DNA of 8,282 nucleotides, taken from a bacterium Ga0077546. Lineage in GTDB: Bacteria > Cyanobacteriota > Vampirovibrionia > Obscuribacterales > Obscuribacteraceae. Positions 98 to 7,630 of this stretch are shown here, piece after piece. Where the stretch lies: assembly GCA_001464165.1 (NCBI GenBank), contig LNEX01000381.1:1-8282 (forward strand), written 5' to 3'. Position 1 is the first letter of the stretch. Each line of letters starts with the position of its first letter. The notes under the pieces were generated by a model. It worked only from the letters and a program-made list of their open reading frames with translations. It was not told where the DNA came from and searched no databases. The translations under genes and the position numbers were made by a program.

Positions 98-590
98 GAG
101 AGATTAAGCCAAGCGTTGTGGTGTTAATCTGTGCACAACTGCATATACAAACGAATATACCGAAGGCGCAAGCATGGTTCAGGTGCTTGGCTATTAGATT
201 AAATATCCACAGCAAGTCTTGAAGCGATCATTCGAATTGTCAGCAGATATGCGAAGTATTTTCATCGGGGGACTTCCATTAGATTTCGTCTCGGCTATAC
301 TAATTGCATAACCGGTGAGCACACACCAATAAATAAGTTGTGTGCTTTGAGCCGAGGGGTTAAGTGGAAACGTCAGGTCTGCGCAGACCGGAAACTGTAG
401 TGATAACCCGCTAGCTGTGGATTCTGACTTGAAGCAGCAAGAAATATCGAGCCTACGCAATAGGCAGTCAGACGATAGTGAAAAAGCCTCTTGTATGCCC
501 ACTTAAGATTCTGACCTGCTCACCAAGAGCTGATCCGTTTGAGATCTTCGCTCTCTCTTTGCACGGTGCGAGGAAGGTCAGGTTTTTGAT
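98..590 (+). ncRNA. Candidate structured RNA region, no known family recognised
   Basis: This stretch has no credible protein gene but is rich in compatible inverted repeats. Perfect stems seen: 101-107/124-130 (7 bp), 107-114/185-192 (8 bp, an alternative to the former), 253-257/272-276, 290-296/350-356 (7 bp) enclosing 318-325/339-346 (8 bp), 357-362/404-409 enclosing the 14-bp palindrome 376-389, 423-429/466-472 (7 bp) enclosing 451-455/461-465, and 511-517/575-581 (7 bp). From 290 on they nest or follow each other without conflict. I looked for signature sequences of RNase P RNA, tmRNA and SRP RNA and did not find them. Strand is inferred from U.G wobbles that extend the last stem and from the T-run after it. 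It could equally be a degraded gene or chance pairing. Confidence 0.35.
503..589 (+). terminator. Long hairpin followed by a T-run
   Basis: CTGACCT (511-517) pairs with AGGTCAG (575-581). The inside continues with CTC/GAG (519-521/570-572), ACC/GGT (522-524/565-567), AGAGC/GCTCT (526-530/550-554) and GATC/GATC (532-535/543-546). GGTTTTT follows at 581-587, and the A-rich 5' flank can pair partly with this T-run. The form fits an intrinsic terminator or the 3' domain of the candidate RNA on the plus strand, although the stem is longer and less GC-dense than a textbook terminator. Confidence 0.35.
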
Positions 591-703: not shown

Positions 704-3700
704 TTAGAACGAGAACAAGAATTCCAAATCTTCTTGGGTAAGTTCTTTAGCTACACTGTCGTCTCCACCGATGATTAAATCGGCTAGCTCTTTCTTCTTC
801 TGCTGAAGTGCCAATATTTTCTCTTCAACCGTTCCACGGGTAATCAACTTATAGTTGAATACGTGACGAGTTTGACCAATACGGTGGGCTCGGTCGGTAG
901 CTTGATTCTCTACCGCTGGGTTCCACCAAGGATCATAGTGAATAACATAATCAGCACCAGTCAGGTTGAGACCTGTTCCACCAGCTTTCAAGCTGATCAA
1001 GAAAATAGGAATAGATGGCGTTTGGTTAAAGCGCTCGACACGGTCAAGTCTTTCTTTAGCCGGCGTTTGGCCATCGAGATATTCGTAGGTATAACCAGCC
1101 TTCTCCAACTCTTTGCGAATGATAGAAAGCATCTCCACAAATTGACTGAAAATCAAAATCTTGTGGCCTTCATCTACGACTTCGCCAATCATAGCGAGCA
1201 ATGCATCGAGCTTGGCAGATTGATCTGTTGCTTTCTCTCGATTTTTCAATAAGCGTGGATCGCAACAAACCTGACGCAAACGCAACAACTCGGCCAGAAT
1301 TGAAATTGAAGAACGCTTAATGCCTCGAGAAGCCACTTCATTAAACACGCGCTGACGGCACTCATCAAGCACATCAAGATAAAGCGAGCGCTGCTCATCG
1401 TCAAACTCACAAAGTTGAATAATGTCAGTACGATCAGGCAGATCTTTTTCTACCTGACTCTTTAGACGGCGCAGAATAAATGGATGCACGGTCTTGCGCA
1501 ACTTCATACCAGCCCCATCAAGACCAGCTTCTATGGGTCTCTCAAAGACTTCATTGAAGTCTTTGTACTGACCAAGGAAATCTGGCATAAGGAAGTCGAA
1601 AAGTGACCATAATTCTTTTAGGCGGTTCTCGACTGGTGTACCAGACAAGGCCAGGCGGTGGAAGGCCTTGATGCTCTTAGCAGCAATAGCACCTACAGAC
1701 TCAGGGTTCTTGATATTCTGAGCTTCATCAAGAATAAGAAACTCGAACTGAATATTTTTCAGCTGTTCATAGTCGCGGCGAATGATACCGTAAGTAGTGA
1801 AAATCACATGGGGTTTGTTAGTGCTTTCCTTGCCCAGACGCTTGAGCATTTCACCACGGTCGCGACCCATAAACAAAGCAGTTTTGAGATCAGGCACAAA
1901 CTTAGCAGCCTCAGACAACCAGTTATAGACCACCGAAGTAGGTGCCACCACCAAAGCTGGTGCTCTATCGGCCTTGCCCTTTCCTTGATAATGCTTGAGC
2001 AACATCGCTAAAGTTTGGATAGTTTTACCCAGACCCATATCATCAGCGAGAATACCTGCCAGTCCATATTCTCGCAAGAACATCAACCAATTACAGCCTT
2101 CTTTTTGATATTCACGCAACTCGCCTTTGAAATCTTTTGGCAATTCAAATGGTGGCAATTCACGGAAATGGTGAATCTTGTGAATGAATTCTTCAAAGCC
2201 TTTGTCGGCTTGAACTGGAATCTCTTGTGTTTCTAGAGCGTGTAAAATACCAAGAGCTTGATAGAGCGGACGGGCGCTGTCTTTGCTTTGACCAATTGAT
2301 TTAAGCAGTCCCATTAATGTTGAAGTGGGAACGCGCACATAGTCGCCATCAGAAAGCTTCAAATAGCTACGGTTTCTAAATAGCGCCTCTATAACTAATG
2401 GGAATGGTACTTCTTCATCACCAGCCGAGCACAGCAAATCAAACTCGAACTTATAAGAATCTTTCTTCAGAGACAGTTTCGCTTTGAGACTCAGTTCTTC
2501 TTTACGCACACGATAAGCACTGAGAGTTTCCCAGCCAGACGTATCCCATTCGGCAGACTGTTCTGACGAGAGATGGAAAAGAGCATCAAGAGCCGGCTCA
2601 TCTACAAATGAAAATCGGTCGGCAATTGTTCTAATTGGCATCATATTGGTAAGGAAGCGGCGCACCTGGTTTTCAGGCTCCCACTGCCTTTCTACCCAAA
2701 CACTCTGCCCCACTTCTGAAATTGTACGAGTAAATTTTTCTGACTCAACAGCACTAGTTTCATCGCGCGATTGCAAGACCAGATCGCCGTAACGAAATCC
2801 GAGTGATACTTCAAGACTTGAAGCTTCTGCAGCTGGCTTCTTCGAGATTGTAGCTGAACTGCCATTCGAAGAAATAATTGTATTGTTAGAACCGGCCCCG
2901 GGCAATTTCCGCTCTGACAGCTTAATTACTACTTGGGGAGGTTCAGTTATGGCAACAGGAAACGGAGCTGTTGACTCATCAAGAATGACTGGCATCCGTT
3001 TTTTCAAAACTGGCAAATCTACAGACAAGAACTTGGGCACAACCTCAAGCTTGACCACCATGTAGCCAAACGAATCAAAGTACTGGAACGAACGATGAAT
3101 GGCTGTTAAATCAATAGGATAGAAAGTATCTTTTGAAAGAATCCAGCTTGAAGGCCCCATAAAGAACACTGGATGTTCAACAGCTTCGCCTTCTTCGGTT
3201 ACTCCTTCTAAGCGCAGCATTAATTCGCCACTCTCAGTCTCAGACAGCACCGCTCGTGGTGTTAGAGGCTTATCAGAGAACTGTACAATCTGATTAGTAG
3301 TGGTGTTGGTCAATTTGCAGCAAAGGCTCAAGTGACCAATCACTGTTCCCTCATCACCACGCGGAATACGATGCCCCCCAGCCGGGCCCTTGGTGGTTTG
3401 AGGCAAGCCCGTGAGATACTTAGCTAGGCGCTGAATACGCGAATCTGGTGGCAAGGTCGGTACAACCTCAACCGGCACCTTAAGAATGTTGACCTTACCT
3501 TGCGGTTCGTTGGGCACCACGCCAACAATCATAGCCAGTGGCTTCTCCAGCACCAATAAGCCCAATTCGAAATCACGTTCATCAGGCTCGACACCTTCTT
3601 CACGAGGGTCGTCTAGTAATTCCTTGGCTCTTGGCCCCTTCTCTTGAGGGCTCTCGCGCTTCTGCTCATCAGCCATATCGAATCTAATGCCAGGGTTGTG

Positions 3701-4003
3701 CTTGGCAATATGGGTAAGAACGACAGCTACAGAATGCTTGCAGACATCTTCAAAATATGGACAAGAGCACGCGGCCTTAAAAGAATTGGGAGAATCTATA
3801 TCAACCACAATTTTGTAGGCGTCTTTCTCTGAACCGATTACAAGAGCTTCTATCTCCGAGCCATCGTCGCTCTCTGAATATTTCAATACTTTTTTGCGTC
3901 GATAGTACTGCACACCACGACGATAAACAGGCTCGCTGCTAGCCTCTTGGAGGGCAGAAAGAGCAAGAGATAGTTTTTTACCAGAACCCGAGATTTGCTT
4001 CAT
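704..4003 (-). CDS. SWIM zinc-finger SNF2-family helicase-like ATPase
   Basis: The 1099-residue product is a SNF2/Rad54-type DNA-stimulated ATPase, expected to translocate on double-stranded DNA and remodel protein-DNA complexes in the cytoplasm. An N-terminal SWIM zinc-binding motif is present (C79, C81, C88, H90 in CSCPYFEDVCKH). Residues about 150-600 are a long accessory region as in bacterial SNF2 proteins, with a Ser/Asn/Gly-rich linker near 370-385. The ATPase core follows: DDMGLGKT (654-661, Walker A), DEAQ (759-762, Walker B), SGTP (787-790), then lobe 2 with GGTGLNL (1008-1014) and the motif VI sequence QATDRAHRIGQ (1034-1044). All catalytic motifs are intact. The start ATG 4003-4001 has an AAGG about ten bases upstream; the stop is TAA at 704-706. 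It lies 182 bp downstream of the sensor-like gene on the same strand. Related proteins are compared to RapA/YwqA, but the exact role in this host cannot be told from sequence. Confidence 0.93.
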   Translation of the reverse strand: MKQISGSGKKLSLALSALQEASSEPVYRRGVQYYRRKKVLKYSESDDGSEIEALVIGSEKDAYKIVVDIDSPNSFKAACSCPYFEDVCKHSVAVVLTHIAKHNPGIRFDMADEQKRESPQEKGPRAKELLDDPREEGVEPDERDFELGLLVLEKPLAMIVGVVPNEPQGKVNILKVPVEVVPTLPPDSRIQRLAKYLTGLPQTTKGPAGGHRIPRGDEGTVIGHLSLCCKLTNTTTNQIVQFSDKPLTPRAVLSETESGELMLRLEGVTEEGEAVEHPVFFMGPSSWILSKDTFYPIDLTAIHRSFQYFDSFGYMVVKLEVVPKFLSVDLPVLKKRMPVILDESTAPFPVAITEPPQVVIKLSERKLPGAGSNNTIISSNGSSATISKKPAAEASSLEVSLGFRYGDLVLQSRDETSAVESEKFTRTISEVGQSVWVERQWEPENQVRRFLTNMMPIRTIADRFSFVDEPALDALFHLSSEQSAEWDTSGWETLSAYRVRKEELSLKAKLSLKKDSYKFEFDLLCSAGDEEVPFPLVIEALFRNRSYLKLSDGDYVRVPTSTLMGLLKSIGQSKDSARPLYQALGILHALETQEIPVQADKGFEEFIHKIHHFRELPPFELPKDFKGELREYQKEGCNWLMFLREYGLAGILADDMGLGKTIQTLAMLLKHYQGKGKADRAPALVVAPTSVVYNWLSEAAKFVPDLKTALFMGRDRGEMLKRLGKESTNKPHVIFTTYGIIRRDYEQLKNIQFEFLILDEAQNIKNPESVGAIAAKSIKAFHRLALSGTPVENRLKELWSLFDFLMPDFLGQYKDFNEVFERPIEAGLDGAGMKLRKTVHPFILRRLKSQVEKDLPDRTDIIQLCEFDDEQRSLYLDVLDECRQRVFNEVASRGIKRSSISILAELLRLRQVCCDPRLLKNREKATDQSAKLDALLAMIGEVVDEGHKILIFSQFVEMLSIIRKELEKAGYTYEYLDGQTPAKERLDRVERFNQTPSIPIFLISLKAGGTGLNLTGADYVIHYDPWWNPAVENQATDRAHRIGQTRHVFNYKLITRGTVEEKILALQQKKKELADLIIGGDDSVAKELTQEDLEFLFSF

Positions 4004-4185: not shown

Positions 4186-5409
4186 TTAACGGGGACTCAT
4201 GTCGATAGCCTCAGAAGGGGCTGGAGCTGGCGCTGGCATGGTCCTTTGGGGCACCCGGTTGAAGGCACCTTCAACAATACGCTTCATCTCCACCTGTCTC
4301 TCTTCAAGCGAGTTACAGTAATCATGAAGAATCTCTGCCTGGCTACGCAAAGCCTTGGCGTTATCGGATAGGTCCGGGATTAAAATCTCTATTTCTTCAA
4401 GAATTGAGGATGGTGGGCTAACAGGAGGCCGAATCCGCACATGAGACACCACTTGTTGTCCGGCTGAATTGGTCATTGCTGCTGGAGAAGTAGGAGAAGA
4501 GGGCGCTGGTCGAGCAATCGTAGGTGAGGATGGGGCGTTAAAGTTAGACTGCATCGTTCCCGCTAGGGCATCGCGCAGACGCTCTAAATTCTGCTTAAGA
4601 CCGATAGCACGGCGATAAGCCTGATCGGCCTCTCTCTCAAGCCAGACCTTACGAGCTTTCTGGGTAGCCAATTCATTACTCAAGTGTTCAAGAGCCTTTT
4701 TGCGAATCTCAAGCTCACGTTTGACGTGCTCAACTTCTTTCTGCTTAAGCTCAAGACCACGCCGGCGTAGGTAGACCAGCAAGATCACAATCAGAGAGAA
4801 GGCAATAGACATTATCGACACATAGAAATATCCTCTCTTGGCGCCCGACATCTCGGCCACTCCAGTCAACAAGAAATTGCCTAAGTCTTCAGCGAAAGGT
4901 GGCGGCGGACTGCGCATATAGTAGATGCGACCAAGAACCTTGCCACGGACTCGAGCTCCAGTTGCTCTGGCCTTTTCCACCCGCGGGGAATCATGGGCAA
5001 ACAACGGCTCTAGCTGCGGAGGGTCAGTGATTAAATCGTAGGGCTCATTGCTCTTCGCTAGACCCTCGGCAGTAGCATTCTTCTGCCAAGACTGGCGATG
5101 GTAAATCTTGTTCGTCTTATAAAGGACGTTCTCGCCCGATGGATCAGTAACAACTAAGCCAAACAAGCCATAGCTTGAGTCAAGCGTTTTCTGAATAAGG
5201 TCATCGCGACCCTCTTGAATCATGGCCGAGAGAGTCGTTGGCAGGGTGTGATGAAGCAGATTAAAATCGGTGGTCTGCACCTTGGCGATTGTACCCAACC
5301 AATAGCTCTGATATTGAATCGAGCATAACGCCAACCAACAGAGTATTCCGGCCATGCAGACAACTGGCACGAGAATTCTGTTTCGGAGTGATAGCAGCAA
5401 CTTATCCAT
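4186..5409 (-). CDS. Two-TM sensor-like membrane protein with cytoplasmic coiled coil
   Basis: I do not recognise a named family. The 407-residue protein (from ATG 5409-5407) begins MDKLLLSLRNR, then a first membrane segment at about 12-29. Residues about 30-192 form an outside domain containing the strand-like LFGLVVTDPSGENVLYKT, which resembles Cache/PAS-type extracytoplasmic sensor folds. A second membrane segment lies at about 193-213 (YFYVSIMSIAFSLIVILLVY) and is followed by RRR, consistent with a cytoplasmic end. Residues about 217-284 are a highly charged coiled coil, then a Pro/Ser/Ala-rich linker, a helical segment near 336-384, and a PAPAPAP tail. No HAMP, kinase, GGDEF, EAL or methyl-accepting domain is visible, so it looks like a sensor or scaffold without an enzymatic output. 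A TTG one codon upstream (5412) is an alternative start; neither has a clear Shine-Dalgarno sequence. Confidence 0.8.
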   Translation of the reverse strand: MDKLLLSLRNRILVPVVCMAGILCWLALCSIQYQSYWLGTIAKVQTTDFNLLHHTLPTTLSAMIQEGRDDLIQKTLDSSYGLFGLVVTDPSGENVLYKTNKIYHRQSWQKNATAEGLAKSNEPYDLITDPPQLEPLFAHDSPRVEKARATGARVRGKVLGRIYYMRSPPPPFAEDLGNFLLTGVAEMSGAKRGYFYVSIMSIAFSLIVILLVYLRRRGLELKQKEVEHVKRELEIRKKALEHLSNELATQKARKVWLEREADQAYRRAIGLKQNLERLRDALAGTMQSNFNAPSSPTIARPAPSSPTSPAAMTNSAGQQVVSHVRIRPPVSPPSSILEEIEILIPDLSDNAKALRSQAEILHDYCNSLEERQVEMKRIVEGAFNRVPQRTMPAPAPAPSEAIDMSPR

Positions 5410-5427
5410 CAAAACGGAGTCTACACC

Positions 5428-5450
5428 CGTATGTATCTGATGTACATACG
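5428..5450. promoter_or_regulatory. Operator-like inverted repeat upstream of the sensor-like gene
   Basis: CGTATGTA (5428-5435) and TACATACG (5443-5450) are perfect 8-bp inverted copies with a 7-base spacer. They lie 18-41 bases before the ATG of the minus-strand gene. The size and symmetry fit a dimeric regulator site or a 5'-leader hairpin. The last two bases overlap the first unit of the tandem repeat beside it. Confidence 0.45.
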
Positions 5451-5498: not shown

Positions 5499-5640
5499 CT
5501 TAATTCTGGCGGTTTTTTCTTTGCACAAATTGTTAGCTGCACAACAAAAAAACAGGTTTATAAGTCGCTATAAGCGGGGTATTAATACTGTGTGGACGAA
5601 AGCTCTCACGGAGGAATCGGTTAGAGCAAAAACTAGGTCA

Positions 5641-5830
5641 TACCTCGTGTCTACTAAAAACCCAAACGGGATATTCCACCACTAGGTGGCTGCACATTTA
5701 ACACTATGTGTTTAAGAAGCCGGGCGCTCGTCGTCCGGCTTCTGTTATGACACCACCAGCAGTGCCACTCGCTGGCCTTGAACCAAGGTCCACTTCCAAT
5801 AGTTTTTAGTGTCATTTCGCAACGTGAGGT
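5641..5830 (+). ncRNA. Candidate multibranched structured RNA (five hairpins closed by a stem)
   Basis: A 9-bp stem ACTAAAAAC/GTTTTTAGT (5653-5661/5802-5810) encloses five consecutive hairpins. They are CCACC-acta-GGTGG (5676-5689), AACAC-tat-GTGTT (5700-5712), a 12-bp hairpin with arms 5715-5726 and 5732-5743 and a five-base loop, CCAGC/GCTGG with inner AGT/ACT (5756-5775), and CCTTG-aac-CAAGG (5776-5788). An outer ACCTC/GAGGT pair (5642-5646/5826-5830) may extend it. The G.T pair 5724/5734 and the T.G pair 5652/5811 are wobbles only in plus-strand RNA, which favours that strand. It ends 165 bases before the MshEN-repeat gene, so it may be a leader element or an independent RNA. I match it to no known riboswitch or RNA family; no reverse transcriptase is nearby to suggest a retron. 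Confidence 0.5.
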
Positions 5831-5995: not shown

Positions 5996-7630
5996 ATGAT
6001 GCCGCCGGAAAATCAAGAATCTGCTCAACAAGCCTCTCCGGTTAGACTGGGAGACTTACTGACCGGCGCCGGTTTACTCAAAGCCGAAGACCTAAGGCAG
6101 GCAATGTTAGTTGCTAAAACTCAGTCACTTCCAGTGGGTCGTGTGCTGATTATGTCTGGCTACATTATTGAACCGCACCTGCAAGCAGCAGTGCAGGCTC
6201 AGTCGATGCTGAAAGACGGCTTGATTGACCTAGAAACCGCCCTTGGCAGCTTGCGAGTTATCTCTCGCGATGGCCTGACCATAGATCAGGCTCTTTCTAA
6301 AATGGGTTGGGCTCAACCAGTCAACCAAGTAACCAACAAACTAGGCGAACTCTTAATCGAAGCCGGCCTAGTTAGCCGCGCACAACTAGATGCTGCCTTA
6401 ATTCAAGGCGAGAGCACCAAGCTTCCCCTCGGCAGAGTTTTAGTAACCAACGGTTGGTTGTCAGAACAGCTGCTTTCATCAGCGCTAAACGCCCAAATTC
6501 TAGTTCGCGATCGCCGAGTAACTAGAGAGCAAGCTATTTCTAGCTTACGAGCAGCCCTTGAAAGACAAGTTCCAATCGAACAAACCTTGGCCGAAACCGG
6601 AGTTTCGCTCCATCTAGCTAATGAAACTGTGCGCCTTGGTGAACTGCTAGTCATGGCTAAGCTATTAGACGAAGCAAAGCTGATGCAAGCAGTAGAACTT
6701 GGTCTCGTCAATGAACAACCCATAGGTCAGGTACTAGTCAAAAATGGCATGGTGAGCGAGACCGTCTTACAAACTGCTCTGGCAATACAAACCATGGTTA
6801 CCAAAGGCGAACTGCGCAAAGTACAATGCGGGCGCGTCTTAGAGTTGGTAAACACCGAGAAGCTTTCCTTAGCCGAAGCAGTTGAAAGGGTGCAACCAAC
6901 ACCACCAAGAGACACCTCCAATCTTCCCCTCTACCAATTTTTGCAATTAGCCGGAGTAATCGGTCCTCCAGATATTGAAGAAGCTCTTAAGGTGGGTTCG
7001 CGAGACACACACCTTATGGGACAAATGTTGATGATGACCGGTGCAATCGATCAAAATCTGCTTGGCATTGCCATGAACTGCTCAAGCCTCATGGCTCAAG
7101 GAATATTAAAAACAGAGCAAGCTGTAATTGTGCTTGGCATTTGCTGGAAAAGCAAAGCCACACTAGAAGAGGCTTTCAAGCAACTCGGCTGGAGCTCAGC
7201 CATTATTTCATCGGCTCTTCCTCCGCCAACTCCAGCTGCTCCGCCAGCTCCAGCTGCAACTAATTCGACGACCAACCAAAACATCATTCAACAGAGCCGC
7301 ACTGGCGAACACTCGCTGCCTAAAACTTCCAAACTTGACCAGGCCATTTCTGGGCGCAATAGACAAAGTAGTTCATCTGCTACAGCCCATAACCTCCCAG
7401 CTATGCCAGTTGGGCAAAATCTCACCGTTGAGCAAGGAAGTCTGCAACCTTACGATACTGGTGAGATGTCGCCTATCAGAAAGAAAGAAGAAGCTGACGC
7501 CGCTGCTAGAGCCGCACAAGTGGCCGCACAACAAAGCACCCAAGATAATCCCAGCCAAACAGCATCAGCAAACGACAAACCACCAGCTGGCCCCTCTGTG
7601 AAGAAACGTCTGGCAGACTTAATTCCCTAA
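5996..7630 (+). CDS. Four-repeat MshEN-like domain protein, possible c-di-GMP receptor
   Basis: The 544-residue soluble protein consists of four tandem units at residues 16-105, 114-203, 212-301 and 310-399, with an exact 98-residue period. Each unit resembles the MshEN (type II secretion GspE N-terminal) fold: a half starting with LGE/D-L-L (R17, K115, R213) and a half starting with P-x-G-R/Q (G48, G146, G244, G342). In MshE such paired 24-residue motifs bind cyclic di-GMP. A third segment rich in A and L, ending x-x-LG, completes each unit. The fourth unit is degenerate at its first motif (PLYQFL). Residues 400-544 are a Pro/Ala/Ser/Gln-rich, presumably disordered tail ending VKKRLADLIP. 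No Walker motifs or membrane segments are present, unlike true GspE/PilB proteins. It may read out c-di-GMP or act as a scaffold; binding is inferred. Confidence 0.8.
   Translation: MMPPENQESAQQASPVRLGDLLTGAGLLKAEDLRQAMLVAKTQSLPVGRVLIMSGYIIEPHLQAAVQAQSMLKDGLIDLETALGSLRVISRDGLTIDQALSKMGWAQPVNQVTNKLGELLIEAGLVSRAQLDAALIQGESTKLPLGRVLVTNGWLSEQLLSSALNAQILVRDRRVTREQAISSLRAALERQVPIEQTLAETGVSLHLANETVRLGELLVMAKLLDEAKLMQAVELGLVNEQPIGQVLVKNGMVSETVLQTALAIQTMVTKGELRKVQCGRVLELVNTEKLSLAEAVERVQPTPPRDTSNLPLYQFLQLAGVIGPPDIEEALKVGSRDTHLMGQMLMMTGAIDQNLLGIAMNCSSLMAQGILKTEQAVIVLGICWKSKATLEEAFKQLGWSSAIISSALPPPTPAAPPAPAATNSTTNQNIIQQSRTGEHSLPKTSKLDQAISGRNRQSSSSATAHNLPAMPVGQNLTVEQGSLQPYDTGEMSPIRKKEEADAAARAAQVAAQQSTQDNPSQTASANDKPPAGPSVKKRLADLIP
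6041..7192 (+). repeat. Four in-frame coding repeats of 294 bp
   Basis: The protein repeats correspond to a 294-bp period in the gene. Conserved positions recur exactly every 98 codons, including the R/K-L-G-E/D start and the G of the P-x-G-R/Q motif. At the nucleotide level the units are strongly diverged, so the duplications are old or codon use has drifted under protein-level selection. The last unit is the least conserved. Confidence 0.75.

Follow-up and report, generated by a model that had tools for sequence, protein, structure and literature searches.

A probable stand-alone small RNA gene with a predicted SigB/SigF-type promoter in the Obscuribacterales

Within an 8,282-nucleotide stretch of DNA (the whole of which we refer to as the window), an intergenic region contains what is probably a stand-alone small RNA gene of the Obscuribacterales, with a predicted SigB/SigF-type promoter, a probable intrinsic terminator of its own and a structured 5' domain. 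Comparison of related sequences supports the conservation, the fold and the location of the RNA as well as its independence of the gene that follows, and on these grounds it is most likely a free-standing RNA, not a leader of the neighboring MshEN-repeat gene. We infer transcription itself, the use of SigF as sigma factor and action in trans. In the mechanism that we propose, a group-3 (SigF-type) sigma factor would transcribe the RNA from a GTTTAN-N15-GGGYAT-like promoter. The 5' domain of the transcript would close by means of a stem, P1, and a GGAG-containing hairpin, with a further hairpin in several clades; two or three short hairpins would follow, and the transcript would end at its own intrinsic terminator. 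The RNA, thus placed under SigF-type control, would act in trans, and the GGAG hairpin would be the site through which it functions.

Extent and structure of the conserved RNA

A preliminary description, made from the window alone, had reported five hairpins enclosed by a 9-bp stem at 5641-5830, in a divergent intergenic region upstream of an MshEN-repeat gene. Both the divergent arrangement and the position relative to the MshEN-repeat gene were correct (Table 1), and the homologues of both flanking genes include Candidatus Obscuribacter and Obscuribacterales bacteria, which assigns the window to an Obscuribacterales (Melainabacteria) genome. The plus strand of 5641-5830 folds at -69 kcal/mol (z = -5.19), a value equaled by 0 of 200 shuffles, and the minus strand has a z score of -2.82, equaled by 3 of 200. 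The hairpins are present with the letters described, but their grouping was wrong and the borders of the element were shifted.

We counted the base pairs retained in the window and in five close relatives (loci L001-L005). The CCC/GGG, CCACC/GGTGG and CACAT/ATGTG hairpins are fully paired in all six, and the long hairpin has 11 of 11 pairs in four of them and 10 of 11 in L004 and L005. The two hairpins 3' of the long one are absent from all five relatives, in which they form at most two of five pairs each (2, 1, 2, 1 and 1 for CCAGC/GCTGG, and 0, 2, 2, 0 and 0 for CCTTG/CAAGG, in L001-L005, respectively). The enclosing stem, i.e., ACTAAAAAC paired with GTTTTTAGT, does exist and is kept in four of the six sequences (9/9 pairs in the window, 8/9 in L001, and 9/9 in L002 and L003), but only 5/9 pairs can form in L004 and L005. 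In its minimum free energy fold, the interval 5641-5830 leaves this stem unused. Since the conserved RNA runs from near 5590 to the 12-bp hairpin, the 3' strand of the stem falls past the probable terminator. These pair counts led us to reject the five hairpins plus 9-bp stem as the conserved structure; the reading confined to the window had the right object with the wrong borders.

Conservation reaches about 50 nt upstream of the interval first described, and includes a 5' domain (stem P1 plus the GGAG hairpin) that lay outside it. The 5' end given in Table 1 is deduced from the promoter, and the 3' end from the terminator-like hairpin. The segment 5588-5747 folds with a z score of -4.88, which 0 of 200 shuffles equaled. 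A covariance-model comparison of homologous intergenic regions, part of the check proposed at the outset, showed that both the inner hairpins and the 5' domain are kept among relatives, with compensatory changes. In P1, one pair shows a G-U/A-U change and one is changed two-sidedly, in one sequence; in P2 there was no two-sided change in an 11-sequence alignment. Hairpins at the position of P3 also appear in the folds of L004, L005, L008 and L009, and P3 was left out of the covariance models because the alignment shifts there. Behind the 12-bp hairpin, many relatives have a longer T-run; that of the window is short, and a terminator scan gave no flag at this point.

Table 1. Features of the window (positions in the window; pairing and pair changes of the RNA stems refer to the 11-sequence alignment)
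Feature	Position	Strand	Basis or conservation
poplar-1 RNA (RF03041)	346-482	+	Rfam, 117 bits against a cut-off of 110.5
Divergent gene (synteny anchor), no family assigned	4186-5412	-	Homologue search, gene-order comparison
-35-like hexamer GTTTAT, SigB/SigF-type promoter	5556-5561	+	Match to GTTTAA
-10-like hexamer GGGTAT	5577-5582	+	Match to GGGTAT
Conserved small RNA (candidate), about 155 nt	~5590-5747	+	Covariance models R1, R2 and R3; synteny
Stem P1, GUGGAC/GUCUAC, closes 5' domain	5592-5597/5649-5654	+	98.4% of cells paired, 11 sequences
Hairpin P2, GCUCU/AGAGC, contains GGAGG core	5602-5606/5623-5627	+	97.0% of cells paired
GGAGG core	5610-5614	+	Conserved in the sites compared
Hairpin P3, AC-u-AGGU/ACCU-c-GU	5632-5648	+	Fold of the window
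Small hairpin CCC/GGG (first of those described earlier)	5661-5670	+	Invariant, hence uninformative on covariation
Hairpin CCACC/GGUGG (second)	5676-5689	+	2/5 pairs changed on both sides, in one sequence each
Hairpin GCACAU/AUGUGU (third)	5692-5711	+	One pair C-G in 4 sequences and U-A in 4
12-bp hairpin, probable intrinsic terminator	5715-5743	+	8/12 pairs changed on both sides
9-bp closing stem of the earlier reading	5653-5661/5802-5810	+	Kept in 4/6; outside the wider conserved RNA
MshEN-repeat gene, 3' of the RNA	5996-7630	+	NF053729 (c-di-GMP motif), 118.8 bits, 3 stretches

In the 11-sequence alignment, 97.2% of cells were paired, compared with 33-41% when the pairing was slid by 1-3 columns, and 13 pairs were changed on both sides, compared with 1-2 when slid and 3.3 in shuffles; several of these two-sided changes stem from a single sequence. 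Five sequences of a second clade, that of L035, gave 98.7% paired cells (33-52% when slid) and six pairs changed on both sides (0-3 when slid and 3.2 in shuffles, with 2 of 500 shuffles reaching six), and further pair types in this clade were not above shuffles (212 of 500). Both alignments used for these counts had been fitted to covariance models, and the shuffles ignore relatedness. On clade-wise MAFFT alignments (A6, A14, A15 and A16), RNAalifold recovered the terminator and a P1 stem in A14 and A15, and the terminator together with the apical hairpin in A16; the pairs changed on both sides numbered 3, 2 and 5 in A14, A15 and A16, respectively. In A6, neither P1 nor the terminator was recovered. 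Among the clade-wise alignments A14 folds well and the others, from divergent clades, fold poorly, so homology between clades rests on the models, the order of the parts and the position. With the terminator removed, 22 of the 23 RNAs tested still gave z scores below -1 (mean -2.43), the exception being that of L030 (+0.4).

Several other elements were noted in passing. A CACCATA(T)-like motif recurs immediately 3' of the terminator at a number of loci (e.g., L005, L011, L012, L015, L026 and L070), often with a second ACC or TACC close by, and is present too in L023, where the RNA was not found. Immediately upstream of the divergent gene there is a conserved motif, TGTACATACG / TGTATATACG (5441-5450 in the window, seen by eye), which occurs at the same place in many loci and might be an operator or promoter. 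At the other end of the window, the poplar-1 copy is 98.6-99.3% identical in L001-L003. Between it and an SNF2 helicase gene (704-4003, minus strand) lies a long near-perfect inverted repeat, AAAAAGGGAAGATTTTTTCGAAAAAATCTTCCCTTTTT (about 607-646), that resembles a bidirectional terminator. The best NCBIfam match of the SNF2 gene is the pilus expression-regulating Snf2 helicase, at a score far under the cut-off (457 versus 1100 bits).

Distribution in the Obscuribacterales

Genome contigs were scanned with an alignment of the divergent gene, which yielded 79 loci; 41 of these were long matches of at least 39% identity (L001-L040 and L070), and in these the region upstream of the divergent gene was inspected. 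Almost all are Melainabacteria-type records. The titles of two, L017 and L024, name other phyla (Proteobacteria and Actinobacteria bacterium), yet both have an Obscuribacterales-type locus, and these genomes may be mislabeled. In L016, repeats of about 100 bp (with GCTGCAATCTTGTTTGCAG) occupy the region upstream of the divergent gene.

The RNA could be placed in 31 of the 41 loci (Obscuribacterales), with strong model matches in 15 (which include five training loci of model R1 and two of model R3), weak matches in seven, and by inspection only in nine (L013, L015, L019, L022, L025, L028, L029, L030 and L032). It was not found in the other ten (L014, L018, L020, L021, L023, L024, L027, L037, L038 and L039), of which L020 and L021 are truncated by contig ends.

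Model R1, for which the window and L001-L005 served as training set, found the held-out loci L006, L008, L009 and L070 (E < 1e-14) and L026 (2.7e-5), in all cases at the same place. It gave 21 matches at E ≤ 1 across 42 sources, among them weak matches at the same place in L007, L035, L015 and L012 (E 0.1-0.44). Six were on the reverse strand and coincided with or overlapped the same elements; the best of them, in L003 (4.8e-4), outranks the weak members, and we read these matches as the palindrome of the terminator. Model R2, built from 11 sequences, was searched against 51 loci outside its training set (897 kb, 20 of the loci being from true cyanobacteria or others) and gave nine matches at E ≤ 2. 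Seven had the syntenic position and orientation (L007, L010, L011, L012, L017, L031 and L035), one was immediately upstream of the MshEN gene of L016, and one was on an inverted copy in L036. Model R3, trained on L035 and L040, found L036 (5.9e-33), L034 (1.6e-13) and L033 (3e-8), and L031 weakly. In all, the 51 sources searched gave it twelve matches at E ≤ 2; apart from these four and both training sequences, they comprised three reverse-strand pieces of terminators, one match elsewhere in L017, and weak matches on the elements of L005 and L004.

When whole genomes were searched, each of ten contained one strong copy (E ≤ 2.5e-4), which was syntenic. The other matches in these ten had E values of at least 0.004 and were reverse-strand overlaps, terminator pieces and one weak full-length match. 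Among 53 genomes of the order, searched with stricter filters than the loci, R1 matched 11 (one of which, genome G050, was taken as chance) and R3 matched five. Over 289 genomes drawn from the class, R2 matched 21 at E ≤ 0.1, i.e., ten known members and 11 others, the best of the latter (3.4e-4, 4.6e-4 and 8.8e-4) having overlapping matches on both strands. Ten of these 11 (L112-L121), together with L090 (the weak R1 match in G050, at 0.015), have a terminator of GCCGG, GTCGGG or similar type, and neither a GGAG hairpin nor a GGGYA promoter was seen in place (minus-strand matches judged by eye). We took these matches as chance, and the 289 genomes gave nothing convincing outside the order.

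Predicted promoter and sigma factor, and gene context

Upstream of the first stem, there is a GTTTAN...GGGYAT-like pair of hexamers. We scored GTTTAA plus GGGTAT with a spacer of 12-16 against composition shuffles. The window matches at 11 of 12 positions with a spacer of 15 (shuffle p = 0.003), and 21 of 28 sites exceeded their shuffles at p ≤ 0.05; the seven that did not were L070, L026, L028, L031, L032, L033 and L034. Four loci found later (L013, L019, L022 and L029) are outside both this count and the survey of next genes below. In 26 of the 28 sites the best-scoring -10 hexamer ends 9 nt upstream of the P1 anchor, the anchors having been chosen by hand. Genome-wide, the exact pattern was not clearly enriched in seven genomes (20 occurrences versus 13 for a reversed control). 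The arrangement resembles the SigB consensus GTTTAA-N15(±2)-GGGTAT, as given in PMC9847131. According to PMC2758279, SigF of Synechocystis requires GGTAA in the -12 region together with TAGGC at -32, and the predicted promoter of the RNA differs from the latter.

The SigBFG model matched in 10 of 10 genomes, always below its curated cut-off (one of these genomes, that of L023, being without a detected RNA). The search is not specific: at E ≤ 1e-10 it also matched 10 of 14 control genomes, e.g., E. coli. Each of the 10 genomes encodes one of the two best-scoring SigBFG types on the same contig as the anchor gene, at a distance of 8-24 kb by coordinates, which may be mere conservation of gene order. 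Three such proteins were tested, and their best match was the SigF model PRK07408, at 192-209 bits and below cut-off. At one locus (L105, in genome G032), a gene for a PilT-like ATPase, as judged by eye from its translation, comes after the SigF-like gene; this neighbor would suit the link between SigF and pili in cyanobacteria (PMC2758279).

The genes that follow the RNA bear on whether it could be a leader. In the window and 18 loci an MshEN-like gene comes next on the same strand, and the RNA ends with a terminator-like hairpin. It might therefore be a cis-acting leader, riboswitch or attenuator of that gene, with the terminator hairpin switched for read-through. We consider this quite improbable, because the RNA is kept in other contexts. 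In L025, L030 and L033 the next gene encodes superoxide dismutase instead; in L035 it is convergent and encodes a GNAT acetyltransferase; and L031, L032, L034 and L040 have as nearest neighbor a convergent ORF without Pfam match, with a same-strand acyltransferase gene beyond it in L034. In L036 (9407-9561, plus strand) the RNA is inverted together with its promoter, upstream of the anchor gene and pointing towards it. The RNA is thus independent of the gene downstream and has no fixed place upstream of one regulated gene; its own predicted promoter lies at a fixed distance in 26 of the 28 sites. Moreover, conservation outside the closest relatives ends some 250 nt upstream of the ATG, no riboswitch model of Rfam matched, and on incidental inspection we noticed no conserved alternative pairing of the terminator. 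The preliminary description had offered both a riboswitch-like leader and a stand-alone small RNA; these neighbor swaps and the inversion leave the leader unsupported but favor the stand-alone RNA. It is even less probable, indeed barely credible, that the element is not an RNA at all and represents a DNA-level or mobile-element cluster of hairpins. Its dense inverted repeats would fit such a cluster, but the strand asymmetry of folding given above, the G-U and compensatory changes, and the single strong syntenic copy in each of ten genomes argue against it. A mobile-element end had been named as an outcome that would overturn the RNA; repeated copies were not seen in the ten genomes, the core pattern of one clade had no match in viral contigs, and the window element had none in plasmid and phage collections.

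The GGAG core and comparison with known RNAs

All 32 sites compared contain GGAG, and 30 of them GGAGG; four of the 32 were found with patterns containing GGAGG, which makes the count partly circular. Within the RNA, GGAG is predicted to be unpaired with a mean of 0.33, compared with 0.44 for the domain, and is thus not especially open; in several members the GGAGG core is predicted to be almost fully paired. Because the predictions do not make GGAG unusually accessible, we infer that the core, if a functional site, would more likely be bound by a protein than serve as an open mimic of a ribosome-binding site. Such a Shine-Dalgarno mimic, which would base-pair to the 3' end of 16S rRNA (or to C-rich RNAs) and so reduce translation during stress, would suit the recurrence of GGAGG and the SigB/SigF-type promoter, but in view of the predicted pairing of the core we regard it as unlikely. 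That GGAGG, as a conserved Shine-Dalgarno sequence, serves a short peptide encoded also or mainly by the RNA is very hard to credit, since in 0 of 28 sites is it followed by a start codon leading into at least ten codons.

A wider interpretation, which we put forward only tentatively and with more doubt than confidence, is that this order-wide RNA is a central output of a SigF stress/surface regulon in non-photosynthetic cyanobacteria, and that it is bound, through its invariant GGAG hairpin, by an RNA-binding protein (or by the ribosome). If true, this would point to an undescribed post-transcriptional system in organisms whose genomes revealed neither CsrA nor an Hfq above the cut-off. A search for CsrA (E ≤ 0.01) matched none of 10 genomes, and 3 of 14 control genomes, and Hfq exceeded its cut-off in 0 of 10, with one weaker match in G032 (24.5 versus 27 bits). 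An Hfq-dependent small RNA was rejected on this count. The covariance models, the predicted class of sigma factor and the conserved core are on offer for testing.

The preliminary description had recognized no known RNA family, and our searches agree. At gathering scores, Rfam matched the window only at poplar-1, which lies 5 kb off, is a separate match and has no relation that we could see; between 5540 and 5995 there was no match up to E = 5. Literature searches on Melainabacteria, Obscuribacter and poplar-1 did not reveal the RNA in the titles among the matches listed. It would be a new conserved RNA family, no small-RNA literature having been found for this order among those matches.

Among known RNAs, 6S RNA (RF00013) has a similar length and is tied to stationary phase and stress, but its architecture differs; it gave no match above gathering score at the locus of the RNA, which rejects that identity, and weak matches below the cut-off occur elsewhere in 6 of 10 genomes. 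The c-di-GMP riboswitches, GEMM-I and GEMM-II, would suit a neighbor with c-di-GMP-binding MshEN repeats, but the RNA described here has no Rfam match and is not tied to the MshEN gene. Sponge RNAs of the CsrB/CsrC/RsmZ type also carry GGA in hairpins, but in many copies, whereas our RNA has one conserved GGA core; with CsrA found in 0 of 10 genomes, a CsrB-type sponge was rejected. The small RNAs that depend on SigB in Firmicutes (e.g., SbrE of Listeria) are non-coding RNAs tied to a stress sigma factor of the SigB type, as the RNA described here would be; they belong to another phylum, and the comparison concerns this regulatory tie.
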